The notes beneath the pieces were generated by a model. That model was not told the origin of the DNA, ran no database searches, and saw only the letters and a program-made list of their open reading frames with translations. The position numbers and the translations under genes are program-made. Of a stretch of DNA of 64,000 nucleotides, positions 5,452 to 26,409 are shown in pieces. How positions within the stretch are numbered: the first letter of the stretch is position 1; every line of letters starts with the position of its first letter. The DNA comes from Cordylochernes scorpioides (lineage: Eukaryota > Arthropoda > Arachnida > Pseudoscorpiones > Chernetidae), in NCBI GenBank assembly GCA_030710605.1, contig CP092881.1, positions 74,477,106 to 74,541,105 on the forward strand, written 5' to 3'.

Positions 5452-6478
5452 CTGTCTCACCAGCCACCACTTCGGAGTTACATTTACGTCTTGTTAGAAC
5501 AACCTTTTGATTATCAGGACTAAATTGCGATAGTATAAACGGCCTCGTTGGAAAGCTAGCGGAGTATTCTACAAAAGAAGCTCCTTTTTGTTCTTTTATA
5601 TTATCGCAATATATTTACGTCTTGTTGAATAGAGAAGCACATCCATTAAAATGTACAATATCAAGGAATAATTAAAAATTGAAGATTTTTTATTTCAAAC
5701 TATGAAACCAAATACAACAAGGTTTTGTAACTTAATAGCTAAATTAATATGTTTAGCATGAAATAATGACACAGAATTATCAAATATCAGAGAACAAATT
5801 ATCAACTACAAACTGTACATTAAACATTTGCAGAGATATGTGATTTAGATATACATTTTATTTTTGAAATGAGAGAAAAATTAAAACGACGAATAAATGC
5901 TTTTTTTGCCAAAAGAAGTTGTAGGATTCTAAGTTTCTGTTTGATATTTATCTCCACGAAGGCTCTTTCAATGATATTTCCCGCTCAGCGAATATTCAGA
6001 TTTAATACACTACATCCGAACTTTTAGATTGAATTTTATTTGAATTTTTTTTCCAGATTTGTTCAGAATCTAACTCCACTAAATCACACACTTTATCTGG
6101 GAATATTTGAAGGATGGGGAACAGGGCTTCAAATAAAGAGCGGCGGATGCTGGGGAGAAATCAGTTAACTGGGAAGTGATAGAATACATCAGAGCAATGA
6201 CGCAAGCATGATGCAAAGTAGAATTTCATTTTGAATTAGGTCTGAATAAAAGTTTTTCAAATTGAATAGAGCTACATACTGCTTAAATATTTTACGTTAT
6301 GTAAAACATATTTTGAAATCAATATTCCTAGGAAACAGCAGTCTCACTTGGAATTTTAAAAATATTTCAAATAATATTTTATGTGTGTGTAAAATTATTT
6401 AGGGAAGGTATTACTGAATACTTAAAATATTGGAAAATATATTTAGAAATTTGAACTTTTTTTTTGACGCGTATGATT
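5452..6478. other. Intron, possible short foldback at 5480-5625
   Basis: ATTTACGTCTTGTT occurs directly repeated at about 5483 and 5608, enclosing an inverted pair ATTGCGATAGTATA / TATATTATCGCAAT, so a small mobile insertion is possible. Otherwise AT-rich with no coding signal. Confidence 0.45.
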
Positions 6479-6675
6479 CTTTTAAAAATAAATCAATTTT
6501 CTACTGCCCTTACTGCAATGATGAACTATGGGAGGACCCGGCTCATCACCCTCCCAGCGGTTTCGCCAATTTAATCTACCATACCGCTGTAATATCGCAT
6601 TTTAATTGTAATATGCCCTGCCATTATTTTATCATTGCAGTATGGACAGTAGAAAATTGATTTATTTTAAAAAGA
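6479..6675. mobile_element. MITE family CTACTGYCC, element 1, copy 1
   Basis: Ends are inverted repeats of about 40 bp around AATAAATCAATTTTCTACTG. The interior contains AGCGGTTTCGCCAATTTAAT. The same family occurs at about 6825-7047, 25152-25382 and (partial) 22722-22795. The copy 2 counterpart is about 48053-48257. Confidence 0.68.
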
Positions 6676-6824
6676 ATTATACGCTACGTCACAAATAATT
6701 CAAATTTTTAAATGCAGATGGCGCTCTAATGCATCATATTAATAATGCGTTTTAAAAATATTTTACTCGCAATTTACGGAAGAGCGATGCTCGAAGCATA
6801 TTATATATTTATAATTGTATTGAG

Positions 6825-7047
6825 TATTTCTACTGTCCTCAAAGCTTATGTCCATAGTTAATTCAAAATACCCAGGCCAAGAGTTTAGCTTCAGTATCAG
6901 TATAAAAATGAAACCGAAAAATTCAATATAACAGCAGTATGGTAGATTAAACTGGCGAAACCGCTGGGAGGGTTCACCACTGATGAGCCAGGCCATCCCA
7001 TCATATCAGTAAGGGCAGTAGAAAATTGATTTATTTCAAAAATAATC
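6825..7047. mobile_element. MITE family CTACTGYCC, element 2, copy 1
   Basis: Opposite orientation to element 1: ATTTCTACTGTCCTCAAAGC at the left and AGTAAGGGCAGTAGAAAATT at the right, with the ACTGGCGAAACCGCTGGGAG interior. The counterpart in copy 2 is about 48404-48627. Confidence 0.62.
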
Positions 7048-8114
7048 AAATGTGTCTGAAATAAGTTAAATTTCTTGTAACAGATGACGCGCTATATTGG
7101 AAAATATAATTTGATACGAGCTCGTGATTAGAACCCTATACAAGGTGATTGCATTTAAATAAACCCGAGAGAATTCGAACAGGTACTATGTGGGATAAAC
7201 CAAATTGGCCAAACCGCGTTGTAGCTTTATGGTAATTCACAATTGTTTTAATGGTATTTCACATTTCTGACAGATATCGATTGGAAAAATAATAATTTAT
7301 TTGATGGCCCCCCCTACTTTAATTATGAAAATAAAAAATCAATTCTAATTTGTGCGAAGGATTTTTCTCTCCACAAAATTTACCAAAATTATAAAGTTGG
7401 AATGTTATTTTAAAATTGTCCTTTTTATATTGTTAGAATGATGTTTTATATCTAATATAGTTTATATATTGGTTCTTTATAAGATATATAAGCTAATACA
7501 AATTTTGAAATGAATATATTTATTTTAAATAGATGAAGGTTATCTGTATGATATGATCAATCTAGGTAGAATAGGTTTCATTACGTATCTGTTTATACAA
7601 CATGTATCATACTTCGAATAAATTTTATTTTTGTTAAAAGTTTTATTTTAAAAAATAATTAAAGATTCAACAAAATGTTTTTTTTTTAATTGGAAAAGTG
7701 ACTTTTCGAGCAATGAAGCTCTTCTACTGGCTTAACAATGTCAAGTACAAACTGTTTGTAGAAACAGATGTTCACACGTGCGGGAGGATATAACGAAATA
7801 AAACTTTAAAAGCCCTCCAAACCACTCAATTATTCCACATGTGTGTGTATATATTTACAATTTGAAATATAATTATAAATAGGGGTGGTTTAAATGTACA
7901 TATATATAAGCAGCAATTTTTATAGGTAAAAGTAGAATTGACACGATTGTTAACGGAATCATTTGTTTAAATGATAAAAAAAACTATAAATAAAAATTGA
8001 GTGCAACCTACAGAGTTATTAGAACAAAGGATAACAATCAAGTCATCCCTACTTTTATATATAAATATTTCTACATATTTACATATGTACAGATGTCACA
8101 AACCCGAGTCTTAC
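7048..8114. other. Intron, nothing recognised
   Basis: AT-rich, no open frame, repeat or RNA recognised. It is the downstream intron of the 8115 LDLa exon. Copy 2: about 48628-49694. Confidence 0.5.
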
Positions 8115-8231
8115 CGCAAAATTGTTCGTCTGAGGCATCCAGACAATCCAGGCGGAAGTCACACCACCACAGGGCGGGGATACACTGGCCGCTCAGACAG
8201 CGGATCTGGTCTCTCGAGCAGGGCACCTTGG
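8115..8231 (-). CDS. LDL-receptor class A exon, canonical, copy 1
   Basis: A 117-bp exon (39 residues), phase 1 on both sides, acceptor gtatgtag and donor gtaaga. The module is canonical: [24 protein letters not shown], then LDASDEQFC with the full calcium-binding D-x-S-D-E. This is the best conserved LDLa module in the window and is identical in copy 2. It faces the extracellular side in known LDLa proteins and binds ligand. It is separated from the next exon by about 2.7 kb of AT-rich intron on its downstream side. Confidence 0.85.
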
Positions 8232-8692
8232 CTACATACCGACAATCAGAATCCCACATTTAAAAAATAAGTTTTGAAAAAAAAATTCAATATTCTCTTA
8301 TTTTTCATATATTTATGTAGTAATAAGGTCAATATACACTAGATCGCAATGTACCATCTTATAAATAGTATAGCAGCCCCAAAATGTATTTAAAACTCAA
8401 CGCATTAACTTGTAACTTTTATAAGCCAAATAAAGTTCCTAAAGAGAACCAGATACCAGCGGACGACACAAGCAAGCTAGACCAACAACAACGTCGAGAT
8501 TGCATCGAACCTCCCCGCGGATATTCCACAAGTCCAGAGTCTGGTCACATCTCATCCCTCGTTCGGAACTCTACTCAACATGTGAAACAATCAATGCATA
8601 CTATGCAGTAAATGTGACGGTGGCCAATGCAATCCATGTTTACGACATCAAACCTATCTGTGGGTTCGGAAAACTGCCTATTTCAGATTATA

Positions 8693-9388
8693 TATGCCTA
8701 GCTATCTTGTTAATCTGATAACCCATGCATGTACGGGCCCTTTCCTGGACATCCTTCTTTATGTTTGTCCAAATTAATCTTGCTGTCATTTGTTTGACGA
8801 TTGCCTTGATTCCGGGTTGAACTGTTCCATGAATTAGCTGAAACATATTTTACCTGATTTATTCGGGAATTAAAGGTCTGATATTGCTAGTTGAAGTATC
8901 GCACCATCCTGGTGGTATAAAGGCGATTGTTGAAACTCAAAGTTTTTGTTTTGTTTTAGGAATATCAATTAAGTGTGCTTTATTGATTGGTTTCAATGCT
9001 ATTTCATTGTAATCAATTATCAAACTTTTTCTACTAGCATGTGTTTGAAGTTTTTAACAGAAAGGTAAATAGCCAATAGTTCACGGTCATATGTGCTATA
9101 GAACTTAAGGGTATTATTCAATTTCTTGGAGTAAAAGGCTATGGGTTTCCAGCCATTCTCCTCGTATTGTTGAAGGACTGCTACAATTGCCCAATTCGAA
9201 GCGTCTGTTTTTAAAGACAGAGGTAATTCTGAATTGGGATATGTTAGCATTGCAACATCTGAAAGGTCTTGTTTATATTTTTCTAACATATCTTTTGCTT
9301 CATTGGCCCATGGAATTTTCCTTTTGACCTTTTTGCCGGCACATTTCAGGAATTCGTGCAATACTGCTTGTTTCTGCTCTCTCTGCAT
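8693..9388 (-). pseudogene. Relic of a second gypsy pol: RNase H and integrase fragments, copy 1
   Basis: At 9020-9388 an open stretch reads KTDASNWAIVAVLQQYEENG, then PIAFYSKKLN and YSTYDRELLAIYLSVKNFKH, the RNase H domain of a gypsy pol from a different lineage from the full-length element. Further on, 8693-8850 reads VQPGIKAIVKQMTARLIW, then KKDVQERARTC, the integrase zinc-binding region. The part between is missing and stops intervene, so this is a degraded fragment. No LTRs were found around it. Confidence 0.75.
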
Positions 9389-9981
9389 CTTCTATATATC
9401 TTTAATAGAAGTTTATCCTACCTATAAATGTGTTCGCAAATCTTATGTGGTTTCAGGTAATTTATATTATTGAATTGCCTTCGTTTTTGAAGGTAAAGGC
9501 CTCAATCATATTCCCTATTGTAAATACCTTCTGATATAATTTGCACTTGCCATATAAACTAATTCCTTTTCCTAGGGCATAAACGAAGTAATAATTGTAG
9601 TAATTAACGTTAATAAACACCAGGTTTTCCAATGTATCATGATTAGAAATAGTATAACAAAATGTTGACACGCCAGCTTGGCGACCAGATAATTTATAAA
9701 AACAAAGTCCCCAGAGAGAGGTCCAGATACCCCAGCGGACAGAGTCAAGGTTGCGCAACATTTGTCGAGATTACATCAGAAAATGGAACCTCCCCGGGGA
9801 TATTCCACAAGCCATTAGTTTAGAATTAACGGCTGGATGCGGAAAGCCTCACACGCTTTATGTTAGGAACTCGTCGTTGGTGTCTGGCCGCTTTAGGAGC
9901 CATCCGCCTGCCTCGTCCTTCGTATAGGAACGTCAATGGACGTACGTACATTGATGTTGTGTTTGTTGTTGACATAAATAT

Positions 9982-10045
9982 GTTTTTATACCTTGAAAAA
10001 GGTTGGCGATCATCCAACTGAAGTATTGGTAAATAAATTATTTTT
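9982..10045 (+). repeat. Penelope-type terminal relic, second example
   Basis: CCTTGAAAAAGGTTGGCGAT, then CATCCAACTGAAGTATTGG and TAAATAAATTA. The stem arms (GTTGG and CCAAC) are kept although the sequence differs from the one at 753. It is preceded by a GC-rich patch (9830-9960). The counterpart in copy 2 is near 51571-51634. Confidence 0.4.
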
Positions 10046-10096
10046 AATCCAATATATATGTTTTTTAATTTAATTAAATATATAATGAAAATATAT

Positions 10097-10317
10097 TGTA
10101 ACGTTTTATTTTTGCTTTTACTTTTAAAGAAATGTTTTTATTTTAAATCTTTATCTAATTAGTTTGTTTGTTTTAAATAAAGAGGCAAATTTACCATGTT
10201 GTTCTTTTGTTTATTAATTGTTCTTTTTTTTTAATGATGATAAAAGTTATTGATAACACATTAAAAATCAATGAAAAAACAATTACAAAATTAATTACAA
10301 AATTTAGAAACGTGTCA
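10097..10317 (-). repeat. Gypsy 3' LTR, copy 1
   Basis: 221 bp, TG...CA, with the target duplication ATAT directly outside. It contains a TTTAAATAAAGAGG stretch on the plus strand and is nearly identical to the 5' LTR. Confidence 0.9.
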
Positions 10318-10337
10318 TATCCCTCGGCTTGAAGGAT

Positions 10338-13300
10338 TTATTTTCGCAAAATAAATGGTTTCAATTGTGACACATGAACTTTAACCAAGGAGGAATCATC
10401 TTTCAATAATTCACACGTAACACTAGATATTATTCTTGTTATTTGAAAAGGACCCTCATACTTTGGGGATTTTTTGACCATACTTGGATCATTACTAGCT
10501 ATTTTACGAAGGACCAGATCACCAACTTTGAATGACGACTTCGGATGTTTTGCATCGTGTCGTGCTTTCCACTTTTCTCTATGCTTTGCGCTATTTTCTA
10601 TTGCTTTCTTCCTTGCATTTTCTATGGTGAAATGTGGTGATTCAGAAAATTCTGGTATTGCACAATCACCAAAAAGTAGGAAATTTGGAGAAAACCCAGT
10701 GACATCATGGGGTGTGCTATTATAATCTTTCACAATTTTGGCAAGTAATGATGACCATTTTAGTTTTGGATTCTCTTGAAGGTTTGTTCTTAATTTGGTG
10801 AGTATAGTGTCATTCATCTTTTCACACAGTCCATTACTCTGCGGATGATATGGCGTCGAATAGGTGTGTTGAACTTGATGCTCATTCAAAAACTTGTTAA
10901 ATTCTTTTGATGTAAAATTCTTTCCGTTGTCGGTTAAAATACATTTGATTTGGGGAACAGTTTTGTTGATTTTGTCTAAACATTGAATTACTGCTTGAGA
11001 AGTGTTGGTGACAGTAGGGAAAGCCCAAACAAATCTTGTTAGGTGGTCAATTATTACTTGAATGTATTTGTGCTTGGTTTCATTTGCTGCAGAGCCTAGC
11101 ACAATAGTATCCATTGATATTAATTCCAGTGGTTTCAGATCAGAGTTTGGTGCAACATATTCTCCAATAAATGGTTTATGACTGCATTTAGTTATTTGAC
11201 ATATTTTACATGAGCGAACATAGTCTTTGATGCATCTGATAGCATTCGGCCACCAATAAAATGGTGTTATCAATCTTACTGTCTTGTTAATTGAGGGGTG
11301 AGAATGATTATCGTGGTATTCTTTGAGAATTTCTTCTTGGAATGATTCTGGAACAACTGTTTTTAGAACTCCATTATGTTTCACCATAATAAGATCTCGA
11401 TGAATATGAGAGTTCTTTACAAAACTGAGATCCGCTTTTTGTTGGTGTAGTCGAAGAGTGGGGATTGATATATGAAATGACACTGGTGATCTTGACAATG
11501 CATCAACATGCGTTTGCTTTGATCCTGATCTGTGAACTAATTTCATTGACTTGGTTGATAATTCAATTATCCATCGGAGATATTTTGCCTTTGGTTTCTT
11601 TACGTTGAAGAGCCATTCCAAAGCCGAATGATCCGTAATGACTTCAAATGTATTGTTCTCAAGATAAACTTCAAAGTATTCAACTGATTGAACTACAGCA
11701 AAGCATTCCAACTCAAATGCAGAATAGTTCTGTTGATGTGGTAGAAGTTTTCTTGAATAATAGGAAATTACATGTTCTTGATTATCATTTCCAATTTGAG
11801 CTAAAATAGCACCAATTCCCAGTTTAGATGCATCTGTATAAAGCTTACATGGTAATGAAGGATCATATGTAGAAAGAACTGGATCTGTGGATAAATGAGA
11901 CTTTAGTTCCTGAAATGATTTGTTAACTTCAGTAGTCCATTTGAATAACTTATTTTTTCTTGTGAGGCTTGTTAAAGGATCTGCAATTTCACTAAATTTA
12001 GGAATAAATTTCCTGTAGTAACCTGCTAAACCCAAAAACTGCCTTACTTGCTTCACTGTTTTAGGTTGAGGGAACTCATTTATTGCCTTTGTTTTTTCAG
12101 GGTCAGGTTTAATCTTGTTATGTCCTATGATATGACCCTAAATATCCTATTTCTTGTTTTGCAAAGGAGCTTTTCTTCAACTTGAGTTTGATATTGTTTT
12201 CTTTAAGCTTGTCAAATATTTTCTTCATGAGTTCAATATGATCTTTAAAAGTACTGCTGTAAATTAGAATATCATCTTGATAATTACAAACACCGTTCCA
12301 AAGAAGATTTCCAATAATATGCTGAATTATTCGCTGAAAAGTACTTGGAGCATTTTTCAAGCCAAATGGCATAACCAAAAATTCATAATGCCCGTCATTT
12401 GTAATGAAAGCAGTTTTCTCAACAGAGTCCTGGATGTATTTCAACATGCCAATAGCCCCATGCTATGTCAAGTGTTGTGAAGTATTTCGCATTATGTAAG
12501 CGATCAAACTATCTTGGATGTATGGAAGAGGCTGCTTGTCATCAATTGTAATTGCATTCAGTTTTCGGTAATCTATGCACATCCTTTGTGAACCATCCTT
12601 TTTAGAGACCAACACTACGGGGAAGGCCCCAAGGTGACTGAGATTCTCTTATTAGTCCCTTTTTACTCAATTCTTCAACTTGTCTTTTTATTTCATCATA
12701 TTCGGCAAGTGGTCTTCTATATGGTCTACAACTGATGGGTGGATGTTCAATTGTATGGATCTTGTGTTGAACAGCAATCCTTCCGATGTCAGTTTCATGC
12801 TGGCTGAACAATGCTTGATTTTCTTTAAGTAATTGATTAAGCTCTTTTTGCTGAACAGATGGAAGATGCGTTTCAGGAGATATATAAAAACATTCATTTC
12901 CTTTAACATACACCGCTTTGTCTTTTGTGTCAATTATTAATCCAATTTTTCCTGCTACATCAAGTCCAATAAGCAATGGATAGCTAAAGTTTTTCACTAC
13001 ATGAAGCTTACACCTGACAAGTTTAGAATGGATTTTCAAAAATACTTCTACTGATCCTAAAGTATATGCAAAACTATCTACTTGTTTAATTTTGATTCTA
13101 TCGTTTACATTCAATTTTAACTTATGTTGTTTTAAAAGCGAACAGCTCATTAATGAAATAGTTGACCCGGTATCAATAAAAGATGAAACTGGAATATTAT
13201 TAAGTAAAACTTCAACATTAACAAATCTATAAGGGAAAATTGGTATTTGCTATGCAAAGTGAATCAGCTATGGTTTGTTTAACATCTGTGGTGATATTAG

Positions 13301-13964
13301 TTGCTTGGTGTTTAAGCTTGTCTTTATAATTAGGATCATAATCTTTGCAATCACTTATCCAATGTTTAAAATACAATCCTTTTTTCTTACAAATAGGACA
13401 CCAATATGGGCAATTTTTTGAGATTGTAGGTGTAGTTATATTAAAAACCTTGGTTTTACTTCTCTGTTGTTGCCTTATTTGATTATTGTTTTGTTCAATC
13501 TCCATGGCAATCTGCATCCAATGTGATGGATCTTTAGGCTGGGCTGTTACGAGATAATTTTTTCCAATCTAATGGCAATCCATCCGTTAACATTTTTAGC
13601 TTCTCGACATTATTGAGGCTTGTTTGATTTAATAATCTAATTTTATCTCTAAAATAATCTTCCACGGTTTCTTCTTTTTTAAGTCTTCTTTTTGATGCTG
13701 CAACTATAGGCTTTCAACTTTATAACCAAAGCGCTGAATTAATTTGAGTTTAACAGTATCCCATTTTTTAATGGATGCGTTGCTCAATATTTCATCAGCA
13801 AACCATTCTAAAGCATCTTTTGATAAATAATAAATTAGATTATTGATTCTATCGACTTCATCTAGTTTACTAGTTTCCAATTCATATAGTTTAAGCCATG
13901 ATTCAGGCCGAATTGAACCTTTATCACCGCTAAATTTCTCTAATTTGTTTACATTTACTGCCAT
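10338..13964 (-). pseudogene. Gypsy gag-pol polyprotein, copy 1, frameshifted
   Basis: One reading frame of about 1,200 codons, cut by several single-base shifts (near 12060-12140, 12450-12610, 13230, 13560 and 13710). In order from the start: gag (MAVNVNKLEKFSGDKG), a CX2CX8HX4C zinc knuckle, aspartic protease FIDTGSTIS, reverse transcriptase with FGLKNAPSTFQ and a YQDD box, RNase H with TDASKLGIGA and HVDALSR, integrase with HHCC zinc site and the D-D-E residues in SMDTIV, LTDNGKNF and LCEKMND, then a GPF motif. The 572-codon stretch from the RT end to the integrase end (10338-12056) is open. Each shift I compared is absent from copy 2, so they look like sequence errors. Role: copying and insertion of the element. 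Confidence 0.88.
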
Positions 13965-14040
13965 TGTACTTACTTTTTCTTTCGTCGAAGCCTTTTTTGA
14001 TTTATATTTTAATCCTTTCGTAGCTGCGCCAAATATTTTA

Positions 14041-14260
14041 TGTAACGTTTTATTTTTGCTTTTACTTTTAAAGAAATGTTTTATTTTAAATCTTTATCTA
14101 ATATTAGTTTGTTTGTTTTAAATAAAGAGGCAAATTTACCATGTTGTGTTCTTTTGTTTATTAATTGTTCTTTTTTTAATGATGATAAAAGTTATTGATA
14201 ACACATTAAAATCAATGAAAAAACAATTACAAAATTAATTACAAAATTAGAAACGTGTCA
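14041..14260 (-). repeat. Gypsy 5' LTR, copy 1
   Basis: 220 bp, reading TGACACGTTTC...AACGTTACA on the minus strand. It differs from the 3' LTR by a few short indels (for example ctaatattag versus ctaattag). Confidence 0.9.
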
Positions 14261-14373
14261 ATATTCTCTATATTTTGCGGGTGTTTGGTCGTTATCATGA
14301 CATAAAATGAAATAAAATTCAGAATCCAACAAGTTTACTTCAAATGCTGTGCTGAATTAAAGAAGCAACTTAC

Positions 14374-14491
14374 AGCAATCCAGCTCGTCGGACTTATCCC
14401 AGCAGTGGAAACTCGCTGTCGCAGCGCTGGTTCAGGTCAATGCACTGTCCGCTGCTACAGGTGAACTGGTCTAGACCGCACGGGAGGAATT
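14374..14491 (-). CDS. LDL-receptor class A exon beside the minisatellite, copy 1 (1-base insertion)
   Basis: An LDLa exon starting [17 protein letters not shown] and, after a one-base correction, ending in a WDKSDELDC calcium box. Acceptor gtgtgtgcag, donor gtaagt, phase 1 on both sides. At about 14411 this copy has ggaaactcgc where copy 2 has ggaactcgc; the extra A shifts the frame and makes a stop. Copy 2 is normal there but lacks one G about 60 bp away. The two errors are complementary, so the underlying exon (117 bp, 39 residues) is probably intact. The minisatellite upstream repeats this exon's own acceptor and first codons, so alternative acceptor use is conceivable. Confidence 0.75.
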
Positions 14492-14928
14492 CTGCACACA
14501 CAGCTGGATTGGTCTGGACGGCACGGGAGGAATTATGCGCACACAGCTGAACTGGTCTAGATGGCACGGGAGGAATTCTGCACACATAGGTGGTTGGTCT
14601 GGGCGGCACGGGAAGAATTCTGCACACATAGGTGGTCTGGGCGGCACGGAAGAATTCTGCACACACAGCTGGATTGGTCTGGACGGCACGGGAGGAATTC
14701 TGCACACACAGCTGGATTGGTCTGGACGGCACGGGAGGAATTATGCGCACACAGCTGAACTGGTCTAGATGGCACGGGAGGAATTCTGCACACATAGGTG
14801 GTCTGGGCGGCACGGGAAGAATTCTGCACACATAGGTGGTCTGGGCGGCACGGGAAGAATTCTGCACACACAGCTGGATTGGTCTGGACGGCACGGGAGG
14901 ATTATGCGCACACAGCTGAACTGGTCTA
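14477..14928. repeat. Splice-acceptor minisatellite, left part, copy 1
   Basis: About 11 units of 38-43 bp, each with a CACGGGAGGAATTCTGCAC core on the plus strand. On the minus strand each unit reads as a pyrimidine-rich acceptor, gtgtgtgcag, followed by AATTCCTCCCGTGC, which is exactly the junction at the start of the LDLa exon at 14374-14491. Some units carry gcgcataattcc, in which the AG is lost. The array begins directly at that exon and is interrupted at 14929 by the mariner. Confidence 0.93.
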
Positions 14929-16233
14929 AGAGGTGTGTTCAAAATGTATCGCGAATTTTGAATTTTCGCGGGTTACGTATATTCGAATTTCGATCTTTAT
15001 GTGGCTTTATGTTGGTACCTCATGTCTCTCACTTATGCCGACAAGCTCGGCATTTTGAATGTTCACTTAATTGTTGACAGCTGCTTTGCTCTGCAGGTGT
15101 TTTGGATCGTCTTCGATTTTTACCTATTAAAAAAATGGATCAAAGAACCTGTATCAAATTTTGTGTGAAAAACGAAATTAAGTGCGCGGATGCATTCCGA
15201 ATGTTGACTGTGGCATACGGAGAAGCTACCTTGGGCCGAAGCAATGTTTATCGGTGGTACAAAATGTTCTCAGAAGGCCGAGAAGATGTGAACGACGAAA
15301 GAGCGTGCCGGACGCCCGAGCACTTCAACAACAGACGAAAAAATTAATGAAGTGGAGAAAATGATATTGGCCAATCGTCGAATCACCGTTAGAGAAGTTG
15401 CTGAGGAACCTAAAATATCGATTGGCTCGTGCCATTCGATTTTTATCAATGATTTGGGCATGAGACGGGTCCGCCGCGAAATTGTACCAAAATTGCTCAA
15501 TTGCGACAAAAACAGCATCGCATGAACATTGCTAATGAGATGTTGGACTCTGTCCGCGACGACCCAAATTTGCTCCAGAGGGTCATAACTGGTGACGAAG
15601 CGTGGGTTTATAGTTATGACGTGGAACCAAAGCTCAATATCTCAATGGAAGCTGGCCGCACGAACCAAGACCGAAAAAGCGCGCAAAGTTCGGTCGAATG
15701 TGAGAGTTTTGCTGACAGTTTTCTTCGATTGCAGGGGCCGTGGTGCATCATGAGTTCTTGCCACAGGGTAGAACGGTCAATAAGGAATATTACCTGCAAG
15801 TTATGCGCAATTTGCGCGAAGCAATCCGCCAGAAACGCCCGGATTTGTGGAAGAACAAAAATTGGCTTTTGCACCACGATAACGCCCCTGCTCACACATC
15901 GTTGCTTGTGCGCGACTTTTTGGCCAAAAACAACACACTAATGATGCCGCAACCACCGTAATCCCCAGATCTGCCCCCCTGTGACTTTTTCTTGTTCCCC
16001 TAAACTGAAGAGGCCCATGAAAGACGACGTTACGCTACGCTTGACGAGATAAAGACGGCATCGAAGGAGGAGCTGAAAAAGATTTTAAAAATGATTTTAT
16101 GAAGTGCTTCGAAGATTGGAAAAACCGTTGGCACAAGTGTATAATATTTTATGGGGATTACTTTGAAGGGGACAAAATAAGTATTCATGAATAAATAAAT
16201 AATTTTTGAGAAAAACACAAAAGTCGCGATACT
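14929..16233 (+). mobile_element. Mariner element inserted in the minisatellite, copy 1
   Basis: About 1.3 kb with imperfect terminal inverted repeats: TCAAAATGTATCGCGAATTT near the left end matches TCAAAGTATCGCGACTTT read inward from the right end. It splits a unit ggtcTAgatggcac at its TA: the left flank ends ggtcTA and the right flank resumes gatggcac. The right-hand TA copy reads TT. The insertion is therefore younger than the array. Confidence 0.9.
15135..16194 (+). pseudogene. Mariner transposase, copy 1, frameshifted
   Basis: Starts MDQRTCIKFCVKNEIKCADA, as in copy 2, but several 1-base shifts break it (about 15298, 15405, 15480, 15640 and 15740) and an ochre-type change occurs in the YSPDL region. 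The catalytic regions TGDEAW, HHDNAPAH and PDLPPCDFF can all be read in one frame or another. Most breaks are absent from copy 2. A cut-and-paste transposase of about 350 residues would be expected for the family. Confidence 0.85.
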
Positions 16234-16837
16234 TTGATGGCACGGGAGGAATTCTGCACACACAGGTAGATGGTCTAGACCGCACGGGAGGAATTCTGCA
16301 CACACAGGTAGATGGTCTGGACGGCACGGGAGGGAATTCTGCACACACAGGTAGATGGTCTGGACGGCACGGGAGGAATTCTGCACACATAGGTGGTCTG
16401 GGCGGCACGGGAGGAATTCTGCACACATAGCTGGATTGGTCTGGACGGCACGGGAGGAATTCTGCACACACAGATGGTCTGAGCGGCACGGTAGGAATTC
16501 TGCACACATAGGTGGTCTGGACGGCACGGGGGAAATTCTGTACACATAGGTGGTCTGGGCGGCACGGGAGGAATTCTGCACACACAGGTAGATGGTCTGG
16601 ACGGCACGGGAGGAATTCTGCACACACAGGTAGATGGTCTGGACGGCACGGGAGGAATTCTGCACACACAGGTAGATGGTCTGGACGGCACGGGAGGAAT
16701 TCTGCACACACAGGTAGATGGTCTGGACGGCACGGGAGGAATTCTGCACACACAGGTAGATGGTCTGGACGGCACGGGAGGAATTCTGCACACATAGGTG
16801 GTCTGGACGGCACGGGGGAAATTCTTCACATACAAGT
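16234..16837. repeat. Splice-acceptor minisatellite, right part, copy 1
   Basis: About 15 more units of the same array on the far side of the mariner. Most are 42 bp (a multiple of three) with the variant ACACACAGGTAGATGGTCTGG, so all three minus-strand frames stay open for long stretches. That is a property of the repeat, not evidence of a protein. Confidence 0.93.
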
Positions 16838-16885
16838 TTCGATATCCATTTGTTGGTTGGAACACAAAGAGAAAATAAAATATAT

Positions 16886-17556
16886 AGTAGCAAAATATTC
16901 ATTATTTTATTAACAGAGTATCATATTTTATGTTTTTTTTGCCACTCTGTAAACTTCCTTTATTGCTTATATTTTGTTTATAATTCATAGTTTGTTCTTG
17001 CCTTAAATAAATTTCTTTTCATCCTGAAGTTTGTCTTTCCTAATTTTCCACGTGGCATTTTGGTGGAGATGCTGAGTAGATTAGGGAAGACAAACTGACG
17101 ATCGCCGAGAAGACCATGAGGCAATGGGTGCTGTGATCTACATTTTCAGAGACTGACCCCAGAAATCCACCGCCGGGTCAAAGCCAAGACTTCCCTCTTA
17201 TACCCTATAGACGATACGACAATAAAGCCCTCTTCACGCCGCAAGAAAAAGGACGCAAAGGTACTAGGGACAAAGTTCCAATAATTCGATGGAATCCTTG
17301 GCAGAAGCACGTCAGATCCATGTCAGGTACTACAATAATTTACAAGCTGTGGGTCACAGCTCCCATAGGGAAGGAGCTATGTAGAAATTTTTTTTATTAT
17401 TTTATTAACAGAGTATCATTTTTTATGTTTATATTTTGCTACTCTGTATACTTCCTTCATTGCTTATCTTTTTTGTTTATCATTCATAGTTGTTCTTGCC
17501 TTAAATAAATTTCTTTGCCATCCTGAAGTTTGTATTTCCTAATTTCCCACGTGGAA
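16886..17556 (+). mobile_element. TRIM-like miniature LTR element, copy 1
   Basis: Two direct repeats of 172 and 177 bp (16886-17057 and 17380-17556) enclose 322 bp without coding capacity. The repeats share TTATTTTATTAACAGAGTAT and CCTTAAATAAATTTCTTT and end at the CCACGTGG motif. TGGTGGAGATGCTGAG, a candidate tRNA primer site, starts 3 bases after the left repeat; a purine tract (AGGGAAGGAG) lies just before the right one. ATAT flanks both outer ends (16882-16885 and 17557-17560). These are the features of a terminal-repeat retrotransposon in miniature. A solo copy of the same repeat lies at 32978-33152. Confidence 0.72.
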
Positions 17557-17642
17557 ATATGTTGAATATTGCGATTATAAATTAGAATGAGCTTGTTTTT
17601 TTCAATCGTCTATTCTATAAGGTAATTTATATCCTTTCCTTT

Positions 17643-18434
17643 ATATATATAAAAATGAAATCCAAAATCGATGTTTGTTATCGCGTTGCGCAAAATCTAC
17701 AGAATCAATCATTATAAAATTTTGCATGTAGTTAGCTGAAGATTTCGTTTAACATATAGGCTATTCAAAAAACTAAAAAGGTTAATGTGCTTTTTTTAAA
17801 AATGTAAAACCAAAAGGATTAGTTCCAGCCTTTTACCGCTTGGCGCCGCACTGGTCGCGACGATAAATGAATTTGATTGGTTAATAATTTTACACGTAGT
17901 TTGTTTACACGATGAATGTTAGTTTGTTTACACGATGGATATTTTTAAAAGGTAAGATTATCCAATCGCCTTGAAACTTTAGGAAGTTATATATATTTAC
18001 TATACTACTGGGAAGGTTTCTGGTTTGAATTTGATTTGAAATAAATATTCGTTGCAATTTATTTGCAAATTTTATTATTTAACTCGCAAGCAGTGCCTCT
18101 CGTGGAATCTGGCGAAATTACATTTAGAAATTGTAAAAATGCTAAAATGTGTTCAAGTTTAATAAATTTAATATTTAATTTGAGGATTTAGTAATATAAA
18201 TTCCAATGACGTTGTAAAAAAAACTTGGGGAATTTCAATATTAATATATATTTAAAGAAAATATCTTATTTAAAATTTAATAAATGTTTTAAAAATATAT
18301 TTAAACGCATTTTTATATGTTTATAAATCTATATATAGGTGGATTGGATGTTTTCTAGAATCGTTTTAACAAATGTTCGTTAGGCAAACATTTACTCGGG
18401 TAAAAACCGGGCGAAGCCAGGAACATTCGCTAGT
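17643..18434 (+). mobile_element. Non-autonomous Helitron, copy 1
   Basis: About 790 bp. It ends ACCGGGCGAAGCCAGGAAC, an imperfect hairpin, followed by ATTCGCTAGT, as in Helitron/Helentron 3' ends of insects and other arthropods. It starts TATATATAAAAATGAAATCC, also typical. No Rep/helicase frame is present, so it would depend on a helper in trans. No target duplication is expected. Confidence 0.62.
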
Positions 18435-18633
18435 AACTATATAAAAACAACACCAACAAAAAAAAAAAATTAACGAGCTAAAAATTAAAGTGACGGCACA
18501 AATATCTTATTAATTTGATTAAGAGATGAAAATGAAATATTTTGATAAAATAATGCTGGTATATATAAAAAAAGAGATGATATAAATAAAAACAAACAAA
18601 ATGATTTTTCTATATTGTCTCTCTCTCTCTCTC

Positions 18634-18730
18634 GTTCTTGTTCGGCGGTGCATATGCTGGAATTGGAGCGATACAGAGAAGATTAGCATGGCCCCTGCGC
18701 AAGGATGACACGCAAAATCGTGAAGCGTTC
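18634..18730 (+). ncRNA. U6: U6 snRNA-like gene, divergent 5' part, copy 1
   Basis: The core GATACAGAGAAGATTAGCAT, followed by GGCCCCTGCGCAAGGATGAC and CGCAAAATCGTGAAGCGTTC, matches the nearly invariant U6 spliceosomal RNA, including the ACAGAGA box and the AGC of the U4/U6 region. The 5' stem region differs: TTCGGCGGTGCATATGCTGG replaces the usual sequence mainly by purine transitions. The Pol III T-run expected at the 3' end is missing; a CT run follows directly, and another precedes the gene. It may be a functional variant or a retro-copied pseudogene; the absent terminator favours pseudogene. Confidence 0.88.
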
Positions 18731-18734
18731 TCTC

Positions 18735-19850
18735 TCTCTCTCTCTATACAGCAATCACATTATATTGAAAGTTGACTTATCTTAATATAATTTCATTATA
18801 ATGTTTATATTATTTTTCTTTGTATAAACCTTTCTTTTTTTTTTTTTTACATAAAATTTTTATGAGGTGCCAGCACAAAATAAATAAACATTCCTAAAAC
18901 TGTCTGAATGTACTAAAGTCAATGTCAGAGAGTCCCACAGGAAACTTATAAAAAGGTTTTAAGACATTTTAAAAGAACTATTCTACGGAAAACGGGCAAA
19001 GTGAGTCGGAAAAAAACCCCCGCTACACCATTCGTCATAGCAATGGACGAATTTGTGAGGCAAATTAGACTACAACATGCCAGAAACGATCTCCCTTAAA
19101 TATAAAAACTATCATTTAACAAGAAATATACAACCAAACGCTGAAATATACTAAATTCTATTTAAATAAAATATAAAAGGAAATGAAAAACTCTATTTTT
19201 TATAAATATATAATTTCAAAAATAATTATGTAAATTGATAATTAAATATCTAGACAAAACGAAAATTATATGTGGAAAAAAATACACTAAAAATAGAAAA
19301 ACGAATATCGTTAAAATAAGGAAATATTTTTAATTACGTATCAACAGATCCAGTCAAATACTCCGAATAGAAAAAAATCCCGCTACACACAAATATTTTC
19401 TTAATTATAAATTAACTAGAAACAACCTACCACTGAGGAAAAAAATAACAAAAAGAAAATAAAGAGAAATAAATACCCATTTAATTGCCCATTTATAAAA
19501 ACTGAATATATTTAAGATATTAATGCATCCATTATATTGTAATTAGAAAATATAGATACACAATTGGCATCAACTTTCAAATTTCTATACAAAAAAATCA
19601 CAGTTCAAACATGATTTAAGATTTATACGCAAATATAAACTTAAAATATCTTTAATTATGCAACCTTTTAAATATTTTATTTATGATAAAACTTAGACAT
19701 ACCTATACAATAACATAATACTTTAAACTTCTTAAAAGCAAAAATTTATTATACAAGACATTATACAATACAAGATATTTTGTAAGCTTGGTCATTCAGT
19801 TTTGTCACCATTTTTCTCAAATTTAGACGGTTCACTTGAATCTTGGAAAT
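18735..19850. other. AT-rich intronic stretch after the U6-like gene
   Basis: Very AT-rich, with homopolymer runs, and no coding frame. A polyadenylation hexamer on the minus strand near 19745 is the only signal noted. Confidence 0.5.
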
Positions 19851-19976
19851 TTAGTTGTTGGCTGGAAATTCTTGATCTTTCCATTTAAAGCCCCCAGGCT
19901 CCATGTGATCATTCAGCATGGAAATATTCTCCGAAGACTCCACAATATCGGCTCCAGGGCTGTTTTCCCCGCGGAT
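19851..19976 (-). CDS. Candidate 3'-terminal coding exon, unidentified, copy 1
   Basis: 41 codons and a TAA, reading IRGENSPGADIVESSENISM, then LNDHMEPGGFKWKDQEFPAN and a final N. It is GC-rich for the region and identical in copy 2. An AATAAA lies about 105 bp downstream on the same strand (near 19745), compatible with a last exon. The acceptor is uncertain (GGGGAAAACAG is the nearest AG). It lies in the intron between the LDLa exons 24952 and 14374, so it would be a nested gene, an alternative end or a relic. The sequence is not recognised. Confidence 0.33.
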   Translation of the reverse strand: MRGENSPGADIVESSENISMLNDHMEPGGFKWKDQEFPANN

Positions 19977-21302
19977 TCACGTACAGAATTCACCTGGTAG
20001 ATTGGCAACTAAGGTGAAACGTAGGATAGGTTTGGTCAGAACTCAGGTGAGCAGTTATCATTATGATAAAATCATACAGATCGCTTTTATATAGAGATTA
20101 AATTTTATTGCTTTATATAAATTTAAAATGTGTTAAAAATATTTCGGAGATGTCAAAGCCAAAATACTTTGAAACCACTTAATTCCTAGAAATATGGAAA
20201 TAAGTATAAAAAGAATTACCCGCAGATTCTGTAAATGAATTAGTACTGCTAAAAATTTTTTTAAAATCTTTTTCAAATAATAACGCAATAAAAAAGAGTG
20301 GGTTGATTGTTGGACCACCCAATGCCATCATGTGGCCTTAGTTACAAAAGGAATGCCTAGCGACAAATTGTGATACAAAACATCCTTCTCTTTAAACTGA
20401 CATATCGCCCGCAATTTTTACCTGGAAAATGTCTGAAGGAATTGATATTACAACCTATAGCTGGATTTGAAGATGTTTATGTGAAAAAGAACTAATGTTG
20501 GGACATATATCAGAGTAAGTGTTTATCTCCCACGGAAGAATTAAGGAGGAGAATGCCTGAAAATGAGGAAAATTAAAAGAAGAAGCTTCGACCGTCCATT
20601 ATTGTACCATTGAGAGGAGTGAGAAACACTTTGTTATTCACTTATATATTTGTGGAAATAAATAATAAAAGGGTCAAGTGTTGATATTTACTTATTTTAA
20701 ATATTAAAGATTATTCTTTTGTGTATGTGTGACATATATTTATTGTAATTAATAGAAGAATATGCCACAGAACCAGCTTTGGTAAATATAAACAAATAAG
20801 CACCAATTCCACAATTTCAAGTTTTGACCCTCATCATTACGCCAAGGATTCGGTAAAATATCCTACGGTTATAACATGTGTCAGCGTGGTGTTTTCAACT
20901 ATAGAGTCGAGTGGTAGTCTCAGGCTTGAAGCCATTGTGAGTTATGAAGATGTTCATGCGCAAAATAAATCCATATATTGTTTTATTAATTTATTTAACA
21001 GGATTTTGGAGCTTATTTAGCTCTAATGTTTATATTTTAAATTTTAAAGCAATTAACTATAAACTATAGCTGTACCTATATAATACCACTATATAATAAT
21101 CAATAAACAGAATATGTGTGTGAAAAAATAAAATAATAGAAAAGGTCAGGTGTTGGTATTAAAATAAAAATAAAAAAGACATTTTCTGACCACGAGCACA
21201 TGAGCTTTTTAGATGGCAGAGCGCCATCTAGTGGAACAGAAATAAACTAAACATTGATTTGGTCAACCTAATATCTTGGTAAATCAAGAAAATACAACTA
21301 CG

Positions 21303-21332
21303 AACGCATTTCGGGCTGTTGGCCCTCGTCAG
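21303..21332 (-). ncRNA. Hammerhead ribozyme-like core, copy 1
   Basis: CTGACGA, GGGC, CAACA, GCCC, GAAA, TGCGTT: both conserved hammerhead segments, a 4-bp stem II and a wobble-allowed self-complementary stem III. No RT or GIY-YIG frame is visible nearby, so it may be a solo relic of a Penelope-type element. Confidence 0.55.
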
Positions 21333-21950
21333 CGTGGTGCAGGCTGTAACTCTGCGAACAAAAATCTTGAGAAACCAAGAAATGGGTATTTAAGGCCAAA
21401 CCTGCGTAGATACGCTAAACATGCGAAAATATATATATGTATTGAATTTATAAATTATAACAATATAACGTACAACCCAAGATAAATAGTAAATTGTTCC
21501 CAGCTCTATCCTAAGCAGGGAATATTCGGAGCAAAATTATATTTTCCTAATTTGTAAAGAAAACATCCTCTCTCTGCCCCGCACTGACAAGTTTTAATCT
21601 GTTCTTACACATGGTAGTAAACTATTTATAGTTTTAAAGTTATCTTTTGATTTTTCATTTTAAGAAAGAAAAACAAATAAGATTTTTAATTTTCTCAGAA
21701 TGAATAAAAAATCGAAGTTAGTTACCTCATCCATTTCATTCAATGCTCTAAGACGTAGTGAAAGAATTATAAAGAATTAGAGATTGAATTTAATTAGAAA
21801 CGCGCATATTGAGAATTTTGAAATTATTTCATTCAAAATGTTTGATTCGCGTTTTAATGAGACCCACTTGATAAACTTAAGAAAAACTAAAATGATATTA
21901 AACGAATAAATTCATTCATTGAAATAAACTCTGTTTACATTTTTATTATT

Positions 21951-22283
21951 ATGTGTTATTTATTATGTGTGTGTGAAGATTTCTATAAAATGGCGTCTAA
22001 TTTGTGTGTGGCGAAGAATTCTATTAGAAATGCCATAAATATTTTTATTTTGACCATCAATACTGGCAAACAATCTTATACAATCTTAGCACACGCTGAA
22101 TTAATCCAATTCAGGCAACCAGAAATATTATTTGAATATTTTACCTTCCAATCTTATTCAGAGAAATACAGAGTAAAGTGCACTTATATTGATATCAGAG
22201 ATAAAAATGACACTAAGATGACTTATCCTTATCGCGCAAATGAGCAGTTTTGTTGGAATAGCGCCTTCTATCGGAAAATATGA
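21951..22283 (+). CDS. Hypothetical 110-residue ORF, copy 1
   Basis: The longest non-transposon, non-repeat ORF with an ATG in the segment. It starts MCYLLCVCEDFYKMASNLCV and ends with EQFCWNSAFYRKI. It has no signal peptide, transmembrane segment or motif I can name, and is AT-rich like its surroundings. It is intact in both copies; the one difference seen is synonymous (att versus ata). No promoter or splice site could be assigned. It may be a chance ORF or a TE fragment. Confidence 0.25.
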   Translation: MCYLLCVCEDFYKMASNLCVAKNSIRNAINIFILTINTGKQSYTILAHAELIQFRQPEILFEYFTFQSYSEKYRVKCTYIDIRDKNDTKMTYPYRANEQFCWNSAFYRKI

Positions 22284-22801
22284 GGTTGATTCATGTTTAT
22301 TCCAGACGATGGGTCAACCTGGTAAACCAGGAAAGGATAATTCACCCATGTCAGATGGCGGAGACAGCGATCTACCAAGACGGATATACTACGGTTATAT
22401 TTAGAAATATTCAAATAAGATGGTGAAGGAATGAGGAGGGGAAGAAACAATTCCCGGTCAGAACACCCCCTGGGTGACCATATGTCCAACTTTCTGAGAA
22501 CAAACAATTCCGGGAGATCACCATTTGGTCCCTGGGGAATAATATATCTTACTGGGAAGAATTCGAAAACACTCGGATTTGATGATCAGAGGACATTTCT
22601 CACGTAGGTGGACTCTACGGTGTGATTCCCAGGGTGGTCCTCGGACCCTCTCTGATCCTCACGGGTTTATATAAGAAATACAAACATAAGGCCCGGATGT
22701 TTCTTTTGAACATAAAACTTCAACTCTCTTACTGCGATGAAAAAATTATTGGAAGGGCTTGGCTCATCAGTGGTGAACTCCAATAACCCTGGTTTCCAAA
22801 C

Positions 22802-22893
22802 TAGATCCTGTAAATAGATCCGTAAATAGATCCTGTAACTAGATCCTGTAAATAGATCCTGTAACTAGATCCTGTAAATAGATCCTGTAAAAT
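22802..22893. repeat. Short tandem repeat of about 15 bp
   Basis: Six or so repeats of AGATCCTGTAAATAG alternating with AGATCCTGTAACT, ending sharply at both sides. It is in the intron upstream of the LDLa exon at 14374. Confidence 0.9.
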
Positions 22894-22899
22894 TTTAAG

Positions 22900-24945
22900 A
22901 ACTGAACTGTTTAGTCCAACGGAGAAAACTTTATTTCCCCAATATTTAAATCCATTTAACGATTTGTCCGCGATTTGAACATTAACTACTAATTGAGTTA
23001 ATAAAATGTAATTAAACAAGACAGAGAGAGATTGAGTTGAAACTGATTTATCACAACGCCCATAGGTTTGAACAAGTGTATCACATTAGACTTCTAGTTG
23101 GTGCTGTGTAACTACTATCTCTATTGGAAATTAAATACAAGGCTTGCGGACAGACAAAGAAGCAAGGTGAATAAAAGCTTTTAAAAAGTTTCGACCTCAC
23201 ATACTCTTTAGCTCTAATCATATATTTTATTTAGTATGCCATTATATATATATATATAAATAAACCAAAGAACTATCCCAAAACTTTCAAAGTTAAATTT
23301 TAATTTAATTGACTCCGGTGATATTGTGAATATTTAATAGAAAATCTATCCATAAAACAGTTAAATTGCAAATACTATACATGAAATGTTTCAACACCTT
23401 TTCTAGATAATTGCAATTACTGTTGCGAACTGTATAGAACTCGGTGATTTGATAAATATATAAATTTTAATATAATAATGTTATATATGTTCACTTCCAG
23501 CTTAAATTATGAATTCAAACGGAATTTTAAAATAGGATTTATATTAAAACATTTTGAAAAATTGGACTTATATTAAAACATAAAATATTTCGCTTATATA
23601 ATATTTGCCTTATTTTTATATAAGATGTTTTATGTACGAATTTATTCATTTTAATAAATTCTTGAGAGAAAGTTTATTTCATATATATATGCAAATAAAC
23701 ATAGATATATTACTCCAATAAGTTGCTATTTTATTGTTCAACAAGGGGACTAGAGAAGCATTATTTACAAAATAAATATCCGCACAAAATATTTTCGAAA
23801 GATAAAATCTTCTGACATATTAATACACATTTCTTGCTTTGAAACTTATCCTCTCGGAAGTTGTTTATTATTATTACGAAAATACTTTAGAAATTTGTGA
23901 AATTTATGAAGATTCTTTGGTTAAATATTTGAAGGAATAAAATCCAAATTTACTTGATTTTATAATACAAACGTCCTTATATTTGCAGCAGGAAATAAAA
24001 TAAAGATCAATATTTTGACACATTTGAGTCATTTTTAAAATAAAAATTGATAATATGAATTTAAAACATGTAAAAAATATTTATAAATATAAGGGTTGTA
24101 TATCTCAAAACGGGATTTTTATAGGTTTTACACATTCACACATAATCACTACCATTTTGTACACCTATCCTCCACTGATAACAAGCCAGGTTATTCTGAT
24201 TTATCAACCTATTTGACCTGTTGACCTGGACAGTACCATAAGATCCTGCTTGAAGCGCGTTCTTTTTAGAATCTATTCAAACGCCTAAACAAGTGAAAGT
24301 CGAAGGGTCACGGTGGATGTTCCATTACCCTCCATGTGAAATTTGACGGCAAATATTGTGTGATAGATGCAGAGTGAGATCGCTGTAACAATATGACATA
24401 TGTCTTTAAAATTCGATACTTCGGGCAGTTTGATTTTCTCTCTATGAGTGAATAAATAAAGAGAAAATAAAACTGTAACTGGCCGAAGTGTCTATTTTAA
24501 AAAAATATGAATGCCGGCCAGGCAACCTCTAGATAACAATATACATGAACAATTTTAATGTAAATATTGGATGGAATTTGAGAGACAATTTTGTTCACAC
24601 TTGGTTATCTCGTGTGTCTTCAATAAAAGCCACTGAAATATCTTTTAGAGTTATTGTCTGAATCCCGATATACATGCTGAAAGGTACAACTTCAAGTTTT
24701 GTAAATAAGTGTATATACAATCCCGTTCAAATTGATTAAGATTTCATTCAAAATTTCCATGACACAATTGATTCAAATAATTCAGGACAACTTGTCAAAT
24801 TGTGGAAATTTCTGAATGAAATACATACCGGCGTTATATAATTACGGTTTATATATTTATTCACTAAATTTATAAATTCTTTTTAGAATATATTCGAGTG
24901 TAAATTCCACTGTGTACACAATAATTAATATTTCAAGGACTTGTC
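22900..24945. other. AT-rich intron, nothing coding
   Basis: Contains a dispersed repeat fragment at about 23140-23190 (CAAGGCTTGCGGACAGACAA and AAGCTTTTAAA) with a relative at 31968-32020. No exon found. Confidence 0.5.
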
Positions 24946-24951
24946 ACTCAC

Positions 24952-25080
24952 GGCAATCTCTCTCGTCAATCCCGCCGAGACACTCCACGACGTAGTTGCA
25001 GCGGGCGGCGGGCGGCAGGCAGCGGGAGGAACACTTCAGGTGTCCGGGCGGACATCCCTGCTGTCTGGTGGGAGCCGCCT
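24952..25080 (-). CDS. LDL-receptor class A exon
   Basis: A 129-bp exon, phase 1 on both sides, acceptor ctggcag and donor gtgagt. After a short linker (AEAAPTRQQG) it reads CPPGHLKCSSRCLPPAARC and then ECLGGIDERDC. The six cysteines fit an LDLa module, with an acidic IDERDC end. The region between the second and third cysteines is short. It lies only about 600 bp from the two-module exon at 25684, so this part of the gene is compact compared with the 3-10 kb introns in the duplicated segment. Confidence 0.75.
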
Positions 25081-25151
25081 CTGCCAGGGTCTCACATAGT
25101 ACACAATATATTTGAAAAGTTAAAGTATTCAAAGCACGAATGTCTCTTTTT

Positions 25152-25382
25152 AAACTAATATCAAACTTCTACTGTCCTTACTGCGGTGAAATAAATATTG
25201 GGAGGCTTGGCTCATCAGTGGTGAACCCTACCAGCGGTTTCGCCAATTTAATCTAACAGACCGCTTCTTAGAGCTTTAATACTGTATTGGACGCTTCTGC
25301 TCATATATGCTGCACTGAAGGGCGGAATTTCAGAAATGGTATTCACATGGACATAAGCTTTTAGGACAGTAGAATTTCGTAT
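25152..25382. mobile_element. MITE family CTACTGYCC, element 3
   Basis: CTTCTACTGTCCTTACTGCG at the left, AGCTTTTAGGACAGTAGAAT at the right and the CAGCGGTTTCGCCAATTTAA interior. It lies in the short intron between the LDLa exons 24952 and 25684. Confidence 0.62.
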
Positions 25383-25683
25383 AAATATATGCATATTATA
25401 TCTCTCATAGCACCACGCAGATTGAAAGAATATACAAAAATATTTTTCAAAACTTTAAATCGTGTGCATAGCTACAATTAAAATCATTTTCCACAAAATA
25501 AATTTTAAAATGCCCAATAACAACACTATGTGTACAACCCACAACAATTGAAATAATAAAGAAATAAATCCTTATGCCATAGGTTTATTTATTGACTTAA
25601 CCGCGGATTTCTACCTCTCGCGCTTCAACGGCCAGAAAGACGATAGAGTGTGATTTCTGTCTCTCGAGGGAGTCGCTACCCAC

Positions 25684-25952
25684 CGTGGCAGCCCAGCATC
25701 GAGGGACACTCCGAGCAGACGTTCTCTGCGTGGACGCAGCGGTCGCTGGCGTTACAGAACAGCGTGGAGGCGGGGTCGCACACCACCACGGCGTTCCGCA
25801 AGCTGTAGCGGTGGTCACAGCCGCCCGTCTCGTCGTCGCACTCTGGGCCGCAGTCACAGAACCGTCGCACGTCCGGACCGCGGGCACGCAGCGAGAATTC
25901 CGGCACTGGAACTCTTCTTCGTGCACTACCGGCCTAGGGCAACAGGCCGCGT
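25684..25952 (-). CDS. Two-module LDL-receptor class A exon with a 1-base deletion
   Basis: This exon encodes two tandem LDLa-like modules. The first reads EEEFQCRNSRCVPAVRTCDG and, after a frame change, DCGPECDDETGGC. The second reads CDPASTLFCNASDRCVHAE, then VCSECPSMLGC, and lacks the acidic box. Donor gtgggt gives phase 1. The observed 269 bp is one base short of a multiple of three and the frame break falls at gacggttctgtgac, so one base is probably missing from the assembly. The 5' boundary is the least certain: I chose the AG before acgcgg because it restores phase 1 and length 3n, but its polypyrimidine tract is weak and a second AG lies in ccctag. Confidence 0.65.
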
Positions 25953-26274
25953 CTTTGTCATTAACAGTATTTATCTATAATTTCTGTGTATTCTTATTGT
26001 GTGTCTCATCTATGTATTCCTTATAATATCCTATGAATATATTTATACCGATTGTATACAAGGCAGGTAAATAGGCGTTAGTCTGAAATTAACATAATAA
26101 AAATACAACAAAGGCTTTCTACGTAGGTTGCACAGGAACAATAAGCTCTTAGAATAAAACGGTCTCAAAATATAAATATATATTTTACACCTTCACAAAA
26201 AATGGAAAAATCTCACCCGTTACATTACATTCCCGCCCAAGGTTGTGAAGCCAGCTGTCAAGACAAACACTTAC

Positions 26275-26406: not shown

Positions 26407-26409
26407 CTG

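Follow-up and report, generated by a model that had tools for sequence, protein, structure and literature searches.

A mariner-split minisatellite built on the predicted 3' splice junction of an LDLa exon in Cordylochernes scorpioides

On contig CP092881.1 of the pseudoscorpion Cordylochernes scorpioides (assembly GCA_030710605.1), an exon predicted to encode an LDLa domain is preceded by a tandem array whose units repeat the intron/exon junction of that very exon. The locus raises the question of how such an array came about, which of its many acceptors would be joined in splicing, and whether comparable arrays are known. The whole stretch of DNA analysed, 64,000 nucleotides (positions 74,477,106 to 74,541,105 of the forward strand), is called the window, and all coordinates are given relative to it.

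Anatomy and growth of the junction array

The array consists of 26 head-to-tail units on the minus strand, running from 16834 down to 14491, each repeating the junction of the LDLa exon at 14374-14491. A sequence-only reading of this DNA had described a junction minisatellite of about 25 units of 38-43 bp on the minus strand, and this was borne out with 26 units. The array is discontinuous, since a mariner-type element divides the units into 15 and 11. Lengths called agreed are those obtained after reconciling the two assembled copies of the locus, with units 16 and 22 taken in the form that their sister units have. The features of the first copy are:

16236..16823, minus strand: array block beyond the mariner-type element, units 1-14 plus 18 nt from the start of unit 15 (Tandem Repeats Finder and unit cores)
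14929..16235, no strand assigned: mariner-type element in unit 15, about 1.3 kb (boundaries by eye, +/- a few bases)
14492..14928, minus strand: exon-side block of the array, with the end of unit 15 and all of units 16-25 (Tandem Repeats Finder and unit cores)
14374..14491, minus strand: LDLa exon, copy 1, with unit 26 as exon start; 118 nt, one base more than the agreed 117; the donor gtaagt starts at 14373

Tandem Repeats Finder called the array at 14467-14927 (period 43) and at 16239-16834 (period 42). The core CCGTGC[CG] is present 26 times in the array. In copy 1 the cores are spaced at 38, 42 or 43 bp except for a single gap of 1349 bp, and in copy 2 spacings of 39 and 44 bp occur besides these classes. 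A 22-base junction probe (GTGTGCAGAATTCCTCCCGTGC, at most 3 mismatches) gave 45 matches in the window, both assembled copies pooled, and a mean of 0.00 in 100 shuffles. An AG is found at 23 of the 26 junctions in each assembled copy, whereas the junctions preceding units 16, 20 and 25 read GCAT instead of GCAG; the proposal that every unit is a potential acceptor holds for the former but not for these three.

In a 43-bp unit, the opening ~35 bases of the exon (AATTCC...CTGT) are followed by approximately 8 bases of the intron end (gtgtgcag). The unit spans the junction as had been described, but it is not a pyrimidine tract followed by 14 bp of exon. Because of this composition, the tract before the later acceptors is copied coding sequence and not an intronic pyrimidine tract; 8 to 11 pyrimidines per 16 bases were counted ahead of the acceptors of the units scored. 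In the 24 repeats compared, 3 to 11 edits separate the exon-derived part from exon bases 1 to 35; unit 15, interrupted by the insertion, was left out. The array can be classed, from these letters, as a tandem repeat with a unit spanning the predicted intron-exon boundary of its own gene.

By eye, the unit types follow the order d-c-b-b / d-c-c-b-b / d-c, and the exon-side block in copy 2 has a larger period of 166 bp. Both indicate that units were duplicated in blocks of several. The array would have originated by head-to-tail duplication of the last ~8 bases of the intron together with the first ~35 bases of the LDLa exon, and further duplication, partly as blocks of several units, would have expanded it to 26 units. 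Inside the exon, CTGTAGCAG is similar by eye to CTGTGTGTGCAG of the unit, and this likeness is a plausible slippage point. The exon's GCGGTCTAG (14471-14479) was found again in the internal unit 14 (16275-16283), distant from the exon, which hints that exon and array have exchanged sequence.

The mariner-type insertion would have split the array later. In copy 2, its transposase frame (56677-57639, plus strand) matched Transposase_1 with 65.2 bits (cut-off 24) and HTH_48, a Mos1-type HTH, with 27.6 bits (cut-off 24.1). A 474-bp end of the element is present at at least 38 other genomic places, 40 of 755 candidates having been scored.

The gene and its two assembled copies

The whole structure of exon and array is present twice in the window, the second time at 55958-58422. 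The following features belong to this duplication:

56074..58422, minus strand: array in its second assembled copy, again interrupted by the element (Tandem Repeats Finder and unit cores)
55958..56073, minus strand: second assembled version of the LDLa exon; 116 nt, where the agreed length is 117 (sequence comparison)
27439..27538, no strand assigned: scaffold gap of 100 N, exactly where the first copy of the duplicated block ends

Positions 1-22399 and 41639-64000 of the window are 98.9% identical, and with flanks the duplicated block covers -722..27438 and 40912..69059 (about 28 kb). Inside the window, the copies differ by 86 substitutions and 154 indel events; of the 131 one-base indels between them, 96 adjoin the same base. 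Both hold the 26 units in identical order with one-base differences in seven units, and they may be one haplotype. On the left side of the second copy, the segment 31700-38517 is colinear, as four main pieces (83-97%), with sequence found 18-24 kb to the left of the window. The second copy would be best explained as a false duplication, in which a single locus is represented by two overlapping contigs set one after the other. A real gene duplication was rejected because of the 100-N gap at the end of the first copy and the colinearity of the left part of the second contig. In a wider LDLa profile search of the genome, the 150 scored of 669 candidates were all above the cut-off, and many of these matches formed pairs of equal score, the two members lying 20-150 kb from each other on the same contig. 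Such pairing fits widespread false duplication, which may be common across the assembly.

At the contig end beside the gap, a 71-bp satellite (58 copies, 95% matches) occupies 27539-31670. An imperfect 18/36/59-bp tandem array was noted at 36973-37538, and 36987-38517 is 83% like sequence 18-20 kb left of the window.

The exon adjoining the array had been read as encoding LDLa, which the profile search confirmed. The agreed exon, its boundary predicted from sequence, encodes an intact LDLa domain of 39 codons (PF00057; 39.3 bits, curated cut-off 24.1) followed by the donor gtaagt, and the raw copy-2 exon frame, read across the missing base, gave 35.5 bits. Among solved structures, the LDLa peptide matched 50 distinct sequences at E ≤ 0.001 with LRP2 as the best, which identifies it as LDLa and says no more. 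Protein searches with the copy-2 array-plus-exon frame (160 aa; 333 candidates) and with a composite of three LDLa exons (120 aa; 3 candidates) yielded no hit at E ≤ 0.001 and no significant hit, respectively. The profile of the insect odorant receptor family (PF02949) had no match, but as the 14 controls had none either, this is uninformative.

Eight LDLa exons follow each other in order on one strand, starting at about 116808, 115573, 79169, 67554, 66697, 56073, 49811 and 43379 (window coordinates, second copy used); the one at 67554 is below the Pfam cut-off (20.2 bits). The two exons after the array exon have these coordinates in the first copy:

8116..8231, minus strand: exon B, the next LDLa exon of the gene; junction tested on the second copy at 49811, no local copies
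1642..1760, minus strand: exon C, the following LDLa exon, acceptor gtgtgcag; junction tested on the second copy at 43379, no local copies

The intron ending gtgtgcag is shared by 3 of the 8 LDLa exons and is therefore normal for this gene. Using junction probes for all eight, 23 matches within 6 kb were obtained at the array exon (itself counted); at the other seven exons the same distance contained one match each, the junction itself, and no local copies.

In the 2.62-Gb genome (24 contigs), the exon-side block matched six times, always at this locus and in both assembled copies, and the exon with its donor flank matched twice, i.e., at the two assembled copies; this single-locus result is strong but not absolute, as the search skips very common words. 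The matches agree with the view that the unit was copied from the 3' splice junction of the very exon it precedes. A dispersed satellite unrelated to the gene was looked for genome-wide as the contrary case and did not appear, because the exon-side block matched this locus only. No match to the unit pattern was found in viral contigs or in prokaryote genome contigs. By these searches, the array appears to be local to the gene and neither a dispersed satellite nor a transposon.

Several other elements share the region. In the intron after the array exon, LTR-retrotransposon frames were found on the minus strand at 10338-13950 and 52706-55546, those of the second copy with reverse transcriptase, RNase H, integrase zinc-binding and protease domains; the element is presumably gypsy-like. 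A survey of GC-rich ORFs in 264 kb had many transposon-like fragments among the matches listed. A U6 spliceosomal RNA gene (94.4 bits) is present in both assembled copies on the plus strand (18634-18739 and 60225-60330), located between two LDLa exons and on the strand opposite to them.

Acceptor strength, reading frame and the fate of the array

Acceptors were scored with an approximate matrix and with the array's own AGs included in the background, which gave 5.3 for the exon-proximal acceptor (87th percentile of 3,207 window AGs; 89th of 14,528 in 264 kb), 7.9 for eight upstream acceptors per copy of the 42-bp class (96th percentile, above the exon-proximal one), -1.2 for the AG of unit 1 (38th percentile) and 1.6 to 5.2 for the other acceptors of the gene. 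Scoring the units with a splice-site model had been suggested earlier; on this approximate matrix, most equal or exceed the gene's other acceptors, and many units therefore look equal to real acceptors. Each copy has 22 upstream AG acceptors. The region before the first of them is:

16824..16944, minus strand: AG of unit 1 and 119 AG-free bases upstream, including a pyrimidine-rich run and branch-point-like motifs

This length of 119 bases is attained by only 15 of the window's 3,208 AG gaps. The pyrimidine run reaches 17 of 20 (windows -57 to -36), and the branch-point-like motifs are TTAAT (-87) and TTTAT (-53). From about 16879-16898 upward, the AG-free zone is part of a dispersed element; about 75 AG-free bases lie outside this element and are less exceptional, gaps of at least 75 accounting for 1.9% in 264 kb. 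The motif yTnAy is absent from the 110 bases preceding the exon-proximal acceptor.

The dispersed element (gccacgtgg...) is about 160 bp long and has several copies at 16879-17559 and 32636-33159. One copy ends about 55-75 bp before unit 1, and inverted copies are found at 32722-33159 within a 253-bp tandem pair.

According to the scanning rule, as given in the accessible part of PMC1431707, the first AG after the branch point is chosen. Early units would be favoured under this rule, since the most typical branch-point and AG-free context precedes unit 1, while exon definition would favour the last acceptor because of the 117-nt exon. Between use of an upstream and of the exon-proximal acceptor, sequence alone cannot decide.

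Of the seven exon-side upstream acceptors, 2 keep the phase of the exon in raw copy 1 and 4 do so in raw copy 2, a conflict caused by single-base differences. None of the 23 acceptors, the last included, is open to the donor in either raw copy, because each has a one-base break in the exon. With agreed lengths, one of the seven exon-side upstream acceptors is in phase and meets a stop, and none of the seven is open with the LDLa domain kept. Of the earlier statement that several units are in phase, the part that stands is that the 42-bp units are so mutually; phase with the exon depends on the copy. For units 1-15, none of 15 was open after the element had been removed and the flanks joined; the exact join base is uncertain, and a stop in unit 19 in the exon frame shuts all acceptors farther upstream with any join. 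The frame test is sensitive and hinges on resolving the one-base differences in 7 of the 26 units: with unit 22 as in raw copy 1 (37 bp), acceptors 19 and 22 are open, and with the 38-bp form common to units 17 and 18 they are closed.

Since the exon-proximal junction is the only one giving an open LDLa exon with a gtaagt donor 117 nt downstream, it is assumed to be the junction used. The spliceosome would join to it, and erroneous products, if any, would be destroyed. The array is probably a minisatellite of the mirage type known from lancelets (see below), which arose by duplication of intron end and exon start, was split by the mariner-type element and is passive and tolerated, with the exon-proximal junction in use. 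Neutral tolerance, as we infer it for this array, is the reading best supported by the sequence.

It is unlikely that the array acts as a decoy or poison, in which case branch point and pyrimidine tract before unit 1 would commit some transcripts to upstream AGs, leading to stops and degradation and resulting in less receptor output or exon-skipped forms. The AG-free zone of 119 bases and the pyrimidine run are placed as this explanation demands, but a dispersed element makes up part of the zone, and unit 1 has only a low-scoring AG of its own (-1.2, 38th percentile). Eight of the 22 upstream acceptors per copy do reach the 96th percentile of window AGs, a figure from an approximate matrix with the array's own AGs in the background. 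With agreed lengths, all upstream acceptors reach a stop or lose the LDLa frame, as a decoy would require; the mirages of amphioxus are nevertheless reported to leave splicing intact (accessible parts of PMC3087553 and PMC3902484).

A dead or dying exon, next to which the array accumulates without constraint, is quite improbable. In both assembled copies the exon frame is broken by one base, but the two breaks are at different places and look like base errors, given that 96 of the 131 one-base indels between the copies adjoin the same base. While the mariner-type element hit the array and the LTR-retrotransposon the next intron, the LDLa domain encoded by the agreed exon is still intact over its 39 codons (39.3 bits against a cut-off of 24.1) and the gtaagt donor follows it. 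Seven more LDLa exons are arranged in order along this strand, of which one falls short of the Pfam threshold (20.2 bits).

A splicing attenuator, i.e., a ladder of 22 decoy acceptors fed by the branch point before unit 1, leading an adjustable fraction of transcripts into dead ends and with a repeat number that sets receptor output, is very doubtful. If true, a splice-acceptor rheostat of variable length would exist outside lancelets.

For a protein-diversifying array, which would add EFLPC/CRPD-type repeats to the receptor via upstream acceptors, the chances are slight. The mutual phase of the 42-bp units and the raw counts of 2/7 and 4/7 in phase with the exon start would be in line with it, but with agreed lengths 0/7 are open, and beyond the mariner-type element stops are met in the joined empty site as well. 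The addition of EFLPCRPD repeats put forward in the sequence-only reading thus finds no support, as no upstream acceptor (0/7 and 0/15) leaves an open frame into LDLa. Extra cysteines would upset the LDLa fold.

That the array is an assembly artefact or a dispersed satellite with no relation to the gene is scarcely credible: the region is rich in repeats and duplicated in the assembly, but the exon-side block matched this locus only (very common words skipped), and the 26 units recur in unchanged order in two contigs, bar one-base differences in seven.

Comparison with known minisatellites

The opinion that no case like this had been described proved wrong. Tandem minisatellites across intron-exon boundaries, termed mirages, are published for the amphioxus genes Adh3, globin (BflGb6/BflGb9), troponin C and PGBD5 (PMC3087553, PMC3902484; accessible parts). 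In the mirage of BflGb6, the 3' end of the intron and the 5' part of the next exon were duplicated, and mirages are apparently harmless to regular splicing although many units bear splice signals (same parts of both papers).

Judged by its sequence, the array most likely belongs with these mirage minisatellites already described in lancelets. As far as the accessible text of the two papers describes them, the likeness consists of a boundary-spanning tandem unit in its own gene (here across a predicted boundary) and of splice signals kept in many but not all units (here 23/26). The 26 units of 38-43 bp contrast with BflGb6, whose haplotypes have 6 and 3 units of 150-160 bp; for Adh3, mirage units of 10-72 bp are given in the same accessible text. 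The present array is split by a mariner-type element, unlike the amphioxus mirages. Length variation between haplotypes or somatic cells is a trait of mirages, whereas both assembled copies have 26 units here and may be one haplotype. An acceptor-side junction minisatellite outside amphioxus was not found among the open-licence papers listed, as judged by their titles, abstracts and some passages, which is no proof of absence.

The locus suggests that junction-spanning minisatellites apparently occur beyond lancelet genes and can reach 26 copies with the exon intact. It would offer a natural test of how the spliceosome chooses one among many near-identical acceptors. Possibly, it represents an early stage of intron or exon remodelling; otherwise, it is a curiosity of repeat evolution.

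Further systems were compared. The human DDX3Y minisatellite was rejected as a parallel, as it is a transcription-start repeat and not a junction array according to the accessible part of PMC3039753. Intron gain by tandem duplication spanning AG/GT sites, discussed in the accessible part of PMC3087553, is similar in that a tandem duplication makes new splice sites inside a gene. It differs, as far as that discussion goes, in that no new intron is evident here and the units have acceptors but, by eye, no good donor. The repeat units of human IFI6 are reportedly short (12 nt). The IFI6 (6-16) minisatellite contains multiple splice donor sites (Turri et al. 1995, as cited in the accessible parts of PMC4526556 and PMC2572611) and resembles the present array as a minisatellite offering repeated splice sites within its own gene. 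In these sources the IFI6 units are donor (5') sites and are used, whereas the units described here carry the acceptor, not the donor, junction.
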